Shown: one piece after another, positions 21,847 to 25,004 of the stretch
Layout of the letters: the number at the start of each line of letters is the position of its first letter
Position numbering within the stretch: the stretch's first letter is position 1
Assembly (NCBI GenBank): GCA_020850475.1
Contig: JADZEO010000143.1
Coordinates: 1 to 53,609, forward strand
Direction: 5' to 3'
From: Bdellovibrionales bacterium
GTDB lineage: Bacteria > Bdellovibrionota > Bdellovibrionia > Bdellovibrionales > UBA1609
Length of the DNA: 53,609 bases
Translations under genes and position numbers: made by a program
The notes under the pieces: generated by a model
Databases searched by the model: none
Told to the model about the DNA's origin: nothing
What the model saw: the letters and a program-made list of their open reading frames with translations, nothing else

Positions 21847-22182
21847 GCCGCAATGCCAACCCGCAGAAGGTGGCTATTTGGTTTTCCCAACGATCTGCTG
21901 GTTTACCTTGAGCATGCTAACGAGGCCTAATACCTTTGCCCCGAAGGGGTTAATGCTTTCCATGCTTGGGCTAAAGCCACCGATGAAGAAAAACACCTGA
22001 CCTTCCATGCAATCAGACATTGCTATGCGATTCATTTGATAAGTCGCGGAGTTTCGATGAGTCTTGTAGCTCAGCTTTTAGGAAATTCACTCTCGGTCTG
22101 CCGGCGACACTACGCCGGATTTGAACTGACCACTGATTCGATTGAAGCTATCAACACAATCATGAAAAGATCAGCGAAGTAG
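21847..22182 (+). pseudogene. Remnant of a tyrosine recombinase (integrase)
   Basis: Reading the frame ending at 22182 gives ...LTFHAIRHCYAIHLISRGVSMSLVAQLLGN...CRRHYAGFEL, the C-terminal catalytic part of a phage-type integrase: Arg in HxxRH, the LLGxS box (with Asn where His is usual) and the nucleophile Tyr in RRHY. An in-frame stop at 21928 and loss of the N-terminal domains make it non-functional. It lies 1 kb from tRNA-Leu, as expected for an island integrated at a tRNA. Confidence 0.85.
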
Positions 22183-22390
22183 TTACTTCGGCAGATCTCT
22201 GTTTATCCTCAAGGTTCTCGCTCTCAATTTCGCAAGCAGCCTTGTAGGCCTCGGTACGAGAAATAGGGTTGCCTGTCTGCATGTGCATATCATAAAGGAA
22301 TTTGGATTGAGTCAATGGGTCCATAGAGTCATACGGATTGCTCTTTTTATGTGCCTTGTCCTCAAGCGGTTTGGCCTCTCTTCGCTTCAT
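22160..22390 (-). CDS. Small hypothetical protein, third gene of nucleotidyltransferase operon
   Basis: 76 residues, mostly charged and helical (MKRREAKPLEDKAHKKSN...). I recognise no family. The ATG at 22390 overlaps the nucleotidyltransferase stop in an ATGA, with GGGGA upstream, so translation is coupled. Its last eight or so codons are read from the antisense of the integrase remnant, so the natural C-terminus may have been changed by the insertion history. It could be a partner of the transferase (for example an antitoxin); this is inference. Confidence 0.6.
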   Translation of the reverse strand: MKRREAKPLEDKAHKKSNPYDSMDPLTQSKFLYDMHMQTGNPISRTEAYKAACEIESENLEDKQRSAEVTTSLIFS

Positions 22391-22941
22391 ATTTTTCCCC
22401 ATTCAGTCTTGAGGCCCAGCTTCTCGACCCAAAGTTGCAAGTATTCATCATCAACTTTTGAACCCGCCAGGATTTCACGAATATCTGTGAGATGCTTCTC
22501 TGCTCCACCCTCACGGTAGTAATCAAGTTTCTTGAGAATGATGTTTTCTGGGGCGGCGACATAGACTTCAAATTGAGGCAAGATTTCGACTTTGGCGCGC
22601 CGACTAAACTCTGACTGATGATATTCAGTGTCTTTATACAGAACAATGTCGATCTTGATCCCTGACTGTTGGTGAATCAGGTTGAAGGAGCCACGGCGAA
22701 CGACTTCATCCTTTAGAACCTCAATCGGTGGACAATAGTAATCTTCAAGCGGGAAAATCTGAGTAACTCTTTGAACCAAGCTCGGATGGAGTTGCACGAC
22801 AAGATCAACGTCTTTCGTGAAACGGGGGCGACCGTAGTACATGGAGGCCAATGAGCCCACTAAGAAGTAGGGGATATTTTCCTTATCAAGCCGAACAGCT
22901 ACGTCACGAAGCACTTCAAGAGGGCCTGGTACTTTGGTCAA
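22387..22941 (-). CDS. Nucleotidyltransferase, AbiEii/DUF6036-like
   Basis: 184 residues, cytoplasmic. N-terminal YFLVGSLASMYYGRPRFTKDVDLVV has the nucleotidyltransferase signature Gly29-Ser30 then Asp44-x-Asp46. The C-terminal PENIILKKLDYYREGGAEKHLTDIREIL is typical of DUF6036/AbiEii-type proteins, several of which act as toxins that modify tRNA or other targets. The start is TTG at 22941, overlapping the stop of the previous small gene (TTGA), with AGAGGA about 6 bases upstream. The gene sits between two small genes on a tRNA-linked island. A toxin-antitoxin or defence role is plausible, not shown. Confidence 0.8.
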   Translation of the reverse strand: MTKVPGPLEVLRDVAVRLDKENIPYFLVGSLASMYYGRPRFTKDVDLVVQLHPSLVQRVTQIFPLEDYYCPPIEVLKDEVVRRGSFNLIHQQSGIKIDIVLYKDTEYHQSEFSRRAKVEILPQFEVYVAAPENIILKKLDYYREGGAEKHLTDIREILAGSKVDDEYLQLWVEKLGLKTEWGKI

Positions 22942-23144
22942 AGCTGTCCTCTCTTTCCTTCGTCGTCAGGTAGATTGCGGAAATACTCGATTGTCATTTT
23001 ATGCAGTTCTTCGTCAGAAAGCTCTGGATGCAGTTTGGAAAATCGTGTTTTCTTGACCAAGAAACCGTCCTTGAACATTTGGTTCGCCATTTCAAGGTTA
23101 GTAGGTCTTCTTTTTTGGGTGGGAGATTTTAAAGACTCCGGCAT
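22938..23144 (-). CDS. Small hypothetical protein, first gene of nucleotidyltransferase operon
   Basis: 68 residues (MPESLKSPTQKRRPTNLEMANQM...FSKLHPELSDEELHKMTIEYFRNLPDDEGKRGQL). The end is helical and acidic. I recognise no family. It starts about 40 bases after the tRNA-Leu 3' end on the same strand, so the tRNA promoter could drive the whole operon. ATG 23144 has GGTGG upstream; a longer frame would run through the tRNA and is not believed. It overlaps the transferase start by 4 bases. Confidence 0.65.
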   Translation of the reverse strand: MPESLKSPTQKRRPTNLEMANQMFKDGFLVKKTRFSKLHPELSDEELHKMTIEYFRNLPDDEGKRGQL

Positions 23145-23285: not shown

Positions 23286-23352
23286 AAAACCCTGTCCGAC
23301 GCGTCTACCAACGAAGCGTCGAATCGTCTACCAATGACAAAAACAGGGTTTT
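23286..23352 (-). repeat. Nested inverted repeats with two tRNA-Leu-like D-arm fragments
   Basis: Outer arms AAAACCCTGT (23286-23295) and ACAGGGTTTT (23343-23352); inner arms CGACGC (23297-23302) and GCGTCG (23316-23321). On the minus strand TTGGTAGACG occurs twice (23311-23302 and 23334-23325), the same signature as a tRNA-Leu D loop, so this may be debris of other tRNA-Leu copies. On the minus strand the hairpin is followed by a T-run. Confidence 0.6.
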
Positions 23353-23399
23353 CTAAATTCATAATATCCTTAATTAAATCCAAACTCCAAATCACCAAA

Positions 23400-23456
23400 C
23401 GCCCGCGACGTACAAGTTCCTAAGTCTGGCGTGTCTGCCAATTTCACCAGGCGGGC
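23400..23456 (-). pseudogene. Truncated tRNA-Leu copy
   Basis: 39 bases (23419-23457) match the 5' half of the intact tRNA-Leu gene (23232-23270) with 4 mismatches, including the D arm and the CTTAGG of the anticodon loop. The variable and T arms are missing, but a 3' end able to pair with the acceptor (GCCCGC with GCGGGC) remains. It is thus a tRNA with an internal deletion, not merely a half gene. Confidence 0.8.
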
Positions 23457-23464
23457 ACAGACAT

Positions 23465-23499: not shown

Positions 23500-23889
23500 C
23501 TACTTCACTACCAATTTCTTGTAATCAGGTGCTCGCATCAAGTTGGCCAACTCTTTTTCCGTGTCCATCTCGATACGAATCATCCATCCATCATTCATGG
23601 GATCGTCATTGATCGTTCCGGGATCGTCTAACAAGGAGGCGTTTACCTCGATGACAGTTCCTGAAACCGGTGCGTACAAATCATTGGCGGCTTTTACACT
23701 TTCGATCACCCCAAAGACTTCGCCTTGAGTCACCTTTGCGCCTTCTTCGGGCAATTCAACGTAAACCACTTCGCCGAGTTGATCTTGGGCAAACTCGGTA
23801 ATGCCCACAGTAACGACATTCTCGTCGACCTGAGCCCACTCGTGATCCTTAGTGTAATAATTCTCTTCTGGAATGTGATAGGTCGCCAT
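23500..23889 (-). CDS. gcvH: Glycine cleavage system H protein
   Basis: 129 residues. Carries the lipoyl arm that shuttles the aminomethyl group between P, T and L proteins. Lipoylated Lys66 lies in IESVKAAND; the N-terminal YYTKDHEWAQVDENVVTVGITEFAQDQLG and C-terminal DDPMNDGWMIRIE are standard. It follows gcvT on the same strand with a 20-base gap, so the two form an operon. No gcvP follows: the tRNA region comes next, so the P protein must be elsewhere. Confidence 0.97.
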   Translation of the reverse strand: MATYHIPEENYYTKDHEWAQVDENVVTVGITEFAQDQLGEVVYVELPEEGAKVTQGEVFGVIESVKAANDLYAPVSGTVIEVNASLLDDPGTINDDPMNDGWMIRIEMDTEKELANLMRAPDYKKLVVK

Positions 23890-23909
23890 ATTGAATGCCT
23901 CCGCCTACT

Positions 23910-25004
23910 TTAATTTTTCTGCACAAATGGAGTCTTTACCACCGCTGCCTTGAGTTTACGTCCGCGAATTTCCACCAACACTTCGCAGCCCAACTCAGCG
24001 TACTCGTTGTCCAAGTAGCCCACCGCAATGTTGTCACCCAAACTCGGCGAAACGGTGCCACTTGTTACCTTGCCGATTTCTTTATTGTCAAAAGAAAACA
24101 AGGGGTAACCTTGTCGGGCGATCCCGCGGTCCACCATCTTTAGTCCAACGAGTTTGCGTTTGAGTCCGGCTTCTTTGCCCGCCACAATCTTGTCCCGCCC
24201 AATGAAGTCCTTCGAAGCGGGCTTGATCACCCAGCCCAACCCCGCCGCATAGGGATTGGTCGTGTCGTCGATTTCATGCCCGTAGAGCGGGTACTTCATT
24301 TCGGTTCGCAGAGTGTCGCGCGCCCCGAGGCCCACGGGGCCCACTCCTAAATCCTGTCCCTTATCCAACAATAAATTCCACAGCAGCGCCGCTTTGGCGG
24401 CTGGAACAAAAATCTCAAAGCCTTCTTCACCAGTGTATCCGGTGCGAGCCAACAACACTTGCGCCCCTTCAAAATCCGCAGGCAAAAAGTGAAAACCGGG
24501 TACCGACTTTACCTTGGTACCGAATAAACGACTGACCAGCTCAATGGCTTTGGGTCCCTGCACAGCAATCTGACCCCATTGAGCACTTTCGTTACTCACC
24601 TGTGCCCCACGGTTGTTTTTCACCACCCAGGCAAAGTCCTTGTCCGTGTTGGAGGCGTTCACGCACAACAGGTAATCCACAGCTTTTTCCAAACAGTAAA
24701 CGATCAAGTCGTCGACAATCCCGCCTTCAAAATTGGTGAGGAGCGAGTACTGAGCCTGGCCGTTCTCGAGCTTTGCCACAGAGTTGGAGGTCAGCCACTC
24801 GACGGTATCGAGGGCCTTGGGACCCTTCACGCGAATCTCGCCCATGTGTGAAACATCAAACAAACCCACATTGGTGCGAGTGTTCACGTGTTCTGCCCGC
24901 AGCCCCTGATATTCAATGGGCATTTCCCAACCTGCAAACTCCACCATTTTCGCGCCCAGAGCGACATGACAGTCGAAGAGCGGCGTGCGCTTAGCACCTG
25001 ACAT
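23910..25004 (-). CDS. gcvT: Aminomethyltransferase (glycine cleavage T protein)
   Basis: 364 residues. Transfers the methylene group from the H-protein-bound aminomethyl to tetrahydrofolate, releasing ammonia and giving 5,10-methylene-THF. Typical N-terminus (PLFDCHVALGAKMVEFAGWEMPIEY), FDVSHMGEIRVKG, the folate-domain block TGYTGEEGFEIFVP and RTEMKYPLYGHEID are all present. Length is normal for the family. First gene of a gcvT-gcvH operon. GGAGGC lies just before the ATG. No glycine riboswitch was recognised in the leader. Confidence 0.97.
   Translation of the reverse strand: MSGAKRTPLFDCHVALGAKMVEFAGWEMPIEYQGLRAEHVNTRTNVGLFDVSHMGEIRVKGPKALDTVEWLTSNSVAKLENGQAQYSLLTNFEGGIVDDLIVYCLEKAVDYLLCVNASNTDKDFAWVVKNNRGAQVSNESAQWGQIAVQGPKAIELVSRLFGTKVKSVPGFHFLPADFEGAQVLLARTGYTGEEGFEIFVPAAKAALLWNLLLDKGQDLGVGPVGLGARDTLRTEMKYPLYGHEIDDTTNPYAAGLGWVIKPASKDFIGRDKIVAGKEAGLKRKLVGLKMVDRGIARQGYPLFSFDNKEIGKVTSGTVSPSLGDNIAVGYLDNEYAELGCEVLVEIRGRKLKAAVVKTPFVQKN

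Follow-up and report, generated by a model that had tools for sequence, protein, structure and literature searches.

The locus lies within a window of 53,609 nucleotides (the whole stretch of DNA that was analysed) from a member of the Bdellovibrionales. It comprises three short genes on the minus strand, preceded by a tRNA gene and followed by what is left of an integrase. Read along the minus strand, the features are:

23412..23457, minus strand: 5' half of a tRNA-Leu, truncated and ending in the anticodon loop (comparison with the full tRNA-Leu)
23297..23337, minus strand: two TTGGTAGACG direct repeats, copies of the tRNA D-arm, 23 nt apart (element-end signature)
23269-23185, minus strand: tRNA-Leu(UAG), 3' CCA encoded (ARAGORN and sequence)
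23144-22938, minus strand: ORF1, 68 aa, ATG start, predicted menA-like antitoxin gene of the PF18993 type
22941-22387, minus strand: ORF2, 184 aa, TTG start, predicted menT-like nucleotidyltransferase toxin gene
22390-22160, minus strand: ORF3, 76 aa, putative gene of a tRNA-integrating element
21931-22182, plus strand: C-terminal end of a tyrosine integrase, a remnant with an internal deletion (PF00589 match)

ORF1 starts 40 nt downstream of the 3' end of tRNA-Leu(UAG). Its stop codon and the start of ORF2 share a 4-nt TTGA overlap, and the ORF2/ORF3 junction is a 4-nt ATGA overlap; starting ORF3 at the ATG at 22402 instead would lengthen it to 80 aa. Checked against the sequence and its open reading frames, the coordinates, sizes and stop/start overlaps given for the three genes in a first-pass annotation of this DNA are correct, as is their position right behind tRNA-Leu. 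The frames are not due to chance, because relatives of each exist in other genomes. ORF2 and ORF3 each have a single match in the 3.9-Mb genome; ORF2 matches 24 of the 144 genomes of the class, some of them weakly, and relatives of ORF1 and ORF2 are also present across many phyla. A simple scan of the minus strand from the tRNA to ORF1 showed no promoter-like site, which is weak evidence, and scanning for a promoter or terminator shared by tRNA-Leu and ORF1 gave nothing usable. The leader RNA between the tRNA and ORF1 folds no better than shuffled sequences.

Judged from its sequence and predicted structure, ORF2 is a nucleotidyltransferase of the MenT fold, with Mycobacterium tuberculosis MenT1 as the nearest solved structure. 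It matches the Pfam family AbiEii (PF08843) above the cut-off (E 4.9e-7), and a profile search of the PDB recovers MenT1 (8an4/8an5/8rr5, E 1.9e-5), the sole near-full-length sequence relative in that database. An AlphaFold model built with 62 sequences from the window and other genomes has a pLDDT of 94.4, and its five best fold matches in the PDB are all MenT1 chains, the MenAT1 complex among them. Overall, ORF2 and MenT1 are about 20% identical. In the alignment, MenT1 residues T39, D41, K137 and D152 map to T42, D44, K138 and D153 of ORF2, positions that are invariant or at least 90% conserved among the 62 sequences; three of the MenT1 residues, D41, K137 and D152, are reported to be needed for toxicity (PMC10435456). 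The PADLOC defence models gave no strong match, the best being AbiEii at E 0.006. No MenT relatives were found in viral and phage records, and six plasmid records hold distant ones (five from cyanobacteria, one from Herpetosiphon).

One of the two small proteins had been regarded as a possible undescribed partner. On its own, ORF1 reaches only one Pfam family, PF18993 (Rv0078B-related antitoxin), with an E-value of 0.0012 that is below the cut-off. In a control scan of its own genome an unrelated stretch scores as well against PF18993, and the Pfam score by itself was therefore set aside as proof. Family membership therefore rests on profile, neighbourhood and fold. PF18993 is matched by 55 of the 66 aligned relatives of ORF1, with a best E-value of 1.4e-14. 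When a profile built from 14 close relatives was run against 3,170 ORFs (cut-off E <= 0.01), it retrieved 24 ORFs that lie directly upstream of a toxin and one other, the latter a MenA copy behind tRNA-Leu that is followed by a truncated MenT. The top PDB match of the predicted ORF1 structure is MenA1 (8an5_C, probability 0.97, rmsd 1.3 over 43 columns), with an E-value of 0.75 that is poor, which is no surprise in a small helical protein, and not significant alone. Other apparent similarities were discarded as composition artefacts: the designed coiled coils that head the PDB profile search share a Lys/Ile-rich helix with ORF1, and an HMG-box match was of the same kind. By sequence and model, ORF1 is a divergent member of the Rv0078B/MenA1 family, so the partner is not an undescribed one. 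The first-pass annotation had rightly recognised an AbiEii-like nucleotidyltransferase with a small partner in toxin-antitoxin order.

The homologue and neighbourhood search that had been proposed for the two small proteins separated them: a relative of ORF1 immediately precedes the transferase gene in 74 of 80 toxin loci, whereas the relatives of ORF3 have no MenT beside them. The 80 loci span Bdellovibrionota, Planctomycetota, Verrucomicrobiota, Nitrospirota, 'Deltaproteobacteria' and others. At one locus (L088:1228-2012) a MenT-type toxin has no PF18993-like ORF upstream; a 67-aa ORF in that place resembles, by eye, an AbrB-type antitoxin. Elsewhere (L038:3900-4540, the same as L005) a MenA-like first helix seems to continue in frame into a MenT that looks intact, giving a fusion ORF of about 213 aa. 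The N-terminal helix of MenA1 is reported to inhibit MenT1 by itself (PMC11375011), so this fusion could be a single-chain toxin-antitoxin, or it could be a mere deletion product. Broken MenAT copies were also seen (L018/L121, L019, L029 and L058:6833-7054). Several keep an intact antitoxin beside a deleted toxin, and some lie directly behind tRNA genes or the remnant of a tRNA 3' end.

ORF3 has no family in Pfam, NCBIfam, PADLOC or PHROG, and no ORF3-like ORF (E <= 1) was found in the 80 MenT loci. Its six clearest relatives, in four genomes (two in G068, one each in G002 and G085, two in G305), each have a tRNA-Leu (five) or tRNA-Ser (one) on one side and, on the other, a tyrosine integrase pointing towards them, and none adjoins a MenT; a further, partial match occurs in G296 (E 6e-4). 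The integrase fragment in the window (PF00589, E 7.8e-8) is likewise convergent with ORF3 and shares 51% identity with an intact integrase that adjoins another ORF3. At ORF3 loci the complete tRNA is preceded by a tRNA 5' half that ends in the anticodon loop and by two D-arm copies 23 nt apart. Across 359 genomes this pattern of repeats and tRNA was detected four times, in each case at an ORF3 locus, and a reversed control pattern found no match in the same genomes. The window has all of its parts, including a 46-nt truncated tRNA-Leu that is 87% identical to the full one, but with slightly different spacing, and was thus missed by the strict pattern. Taken together, the ORF3 relatives, the integrase remnant and the repeat signature indicate that ORF3 belongs to a tRNA-targeting integrative element. 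By its distribution, ORF3 is a gene of that element, outside the toxin-antitoxin pair, and the pair is positioned between the tRNA of the element and ORF3. The island proposed in the first-pass annotation holds up as an element context, although a decayed one, in which the integrase persists as a 3' fragment with an in-frame stop just upstream.

The layout of the element end is fixed, in the order tRNA-Leu/Ser 5' half, D-arm repeats, complete tRNA, ORF3 and convergent integrase, and was seen at window positions 23297-23457 and at L033, L034, L035, L036, L129 and L132. At the tRNA-Ser locus the repeats resemble the D-arm of tRNA-Ser. The element may interrupt a host tRNA gene at its anticodon loop while supplying a full copy of its own; no tRNA 3' half was found at the distal end of the ORF3-integrase elements on the contigs examined.

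These observations bear directly on whether the three genes form one unit, in which ORF3 would act on the transferase as a second regulator, chaperone or antitoxin. The 4-nt overlap of ORF2 with ORF3 would fit such a system, as would hints, in two related copies (G070 and G128), of a comparable start codon context beyond the end of the toxin gene. We nevertheless consider it very unlikely, given that ORF3 is missing from every MenT locus surveyed, that its relatives stand between tRNA and integrase with no MenT and that the upstream repeats, among 359 genomes, turned up at ORF3 loci only; the proposed three-gene unit is thereby reduced to two genes.

An abortive-infection unit against phages, akin to AbiE, is an unlikely reading of the pair, if a less far-fetched one. 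The toxin has the AbiEii fold, AbiE is described as a phage-abortive toxin-antitoxin system (PMC3985639), and the weak PADLOC match points the same way. Against this, the partner is of the PF18993 type and not an AbiEi antitoxin (winged-helix/COG5340), phage records hold no match, and the literature that we found, in its accessible parts, contains no phage results for MenAT1-type pairs. Since PADLOC gave no strong match, the anti-phage reading stands without independent support. It is very unlikely that ORF2 is a housekeeping or decayed, non-toxic transferase, such as a small-molecule nucleotidyltransferase. Aminoglycoside and lincosamide nucleotidyltransferases do share the fold, more distantly, and relatives in other genomes (L018, L019, L029 and L058) are broken; the copy in the window, however, is intact with all catalytic residues present, its MenA1-type pairing is conserved and MenT1 is the top structural match.

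We therefore return to the two-gene reading and conclude that ORF1 and ORF2 are very probably a MenAT1-type pair, a toxin acting on tRNA 3' ends with its antitoxin, on a tRNA-Leu integrase element of which ORF3 is a leftover. The assignment draws on homology and fold, on the catalytic residues, on the conserved pairing and the overlap of the genes in their order, and on element context. What had been flagged as a new toxin-antitoxin or defence unit is thus a toxin-antitoxin pair, but of a known kind and not evidently anti-phage: a further member of the MenAT1 kind rather than a new system.

MenT1 is reported to add CMP to tRNA 3' ends, stopping translation (PMC10435456, PMC11375011), and to act with no preference for specific tRNAs (PMC10435456); the first-pass suggestion that the transferase could modify the adjacent tRNA-Leu itself is conjectural. 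MenA1 is described as bridging two MenT1 protomers and as inducing autophosphorylation of T39, chiefly by way of its first helix (PMC10435456, PMC11375011). For the window pair we infer toxicity, a tRNA target, neutralisation, phosphorylation, read-through from the tRNA promoter and element stabilisation, which would combine as follows. ORF2 would most likely transfer nucleotides onto the 3' CCA ends of tRNAs, and the extended ends would block aminoacylation and so stop translation. The 68-aa antitoxin would be translated ahead of the toxin and bind it with its long first helix; as MenA1 does, it would bridge two toxin protomers and cover their active sites, and it may drive autophosphorylation of the active-site threonine T42. 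The pair would have been carried into, or have lain on, a tyrosine-integrase element at tRNA-Leu whose integrase later decayed, ORF3 being left behind. Transcription of the pair by read-through from the tRNA-Leu promoter is plausible, and the benefit to the element would be stabilisation.

In Bdellovibrionota, 8 of about 30 MenAT loci stand directly behind a tRNA gene of the same direction, compared with 0 of 58 elsewhere (Fisher p 9e-5; counted by hand, with loci that are partly non-independent). The tRNAs ahead of these eight are Leu in five cases and Arg, Val and His in one each, separated from the pair by 17-112 nt in the cases that were measured. In G070 the MenAT occupies the same gcvH-tRNA-Leu position as in the window. 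The adjacency is a lead and not proof of coupled expression, because the loci are not fully independent and mobile elements commonly insert at tRNA genes. In the MenAT flanks examined, integrase motifs were confined to the window and the ORF3 elements. The same tRNA-Leu(UAG) is flanked by gcvH (and gcvT) in the window (23500-25004), in G068 (L117:9135-10681) and, with the end of gcvH, in G070 (L012), and therefore looks like a recurrent insertion site; in G068 the element encodes a 909-aa DNA polymerase-like protein in addition to ORF3 and an integrase. That the Bdellovibrionota pairs are tRNA-tail cassettes, expressible from the tRNA promoter, is a doubtful proposition; if true, a toxin directed at tRNA ends would have its dose tied to tRNA transcription. 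The repeated siting behind tRNA genes thus raises the question of tRNA-coupled expression of a tRNA-directed toxin.

Among known systems, HEPN/MNT pairs resemble the window pair in having a small nucleotidyltransferase beside a partner. In those pairs HEPN acts as the toxin and MNT as the antitoxin, and family searches found no HEPN domain in ORF1 or ORF3. AbiE (AbiEi-AbiEii, type IV) shares with ORF2 the DUF1814/AbiEii transferase, but AbiEi is a winged-helix antitoxin of two domains, unlike the 68-aa helical ORF1. Neither ORF1 (PF18993 only) nor ORF3 (no match) is of the winged-helix/COG5340 type, and the first-pass annotation was right that the usual partners, AbiEi and HEPN, are missing. 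MenAT3 of M. tuberculosis (Rv1044-Rv1045) is an analogue in its tRNA-extending MenT fold, which ORF2 may share, but MenA3 is a larger, unrelated antitoxin and MenT3 is also larger (PMC10435456).

The closest likeness is to MenAT1 of M. tuberculosis (Rv0078B-Rv0078A, PDB 8AN4/8AN5/8RR5), which likewise consists of a 68-aa antitoxin followed by the transferase. The two pairs agree in toxin fold and the four catalytic residues, in the predicted helical antitoxin fold with a long first helix, and in PF18993, reached for ORF1 through its relatives. They differ in the TTG start of the window toxin, in its location downstream of tRNA-Leu, within a decayed integrase element, and in two interface residues, R38 in place of MenT1 E35 and L42 in place of MenA1 W47, so the contact between ORF1 and ORF2 must differ in detail. 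This change is common to the clade of the window pair: where the toxin site is R, the MenA position is W in 0 of 11 cases, and where it is E, in 46 of 61. Co-variation of the two sites was dropped as independent support, the R type being a single clade. The MenAT1/PF18993 family, a widespread and strictly ordered antitoxin-toxin pair for which the experimental work that we found concerns M. tuberculosis only, is thus extended to a Bdellovibrionota branch, whose changed contact residues make it a useful natural variant for studying MenA1-MenT1 recognition.
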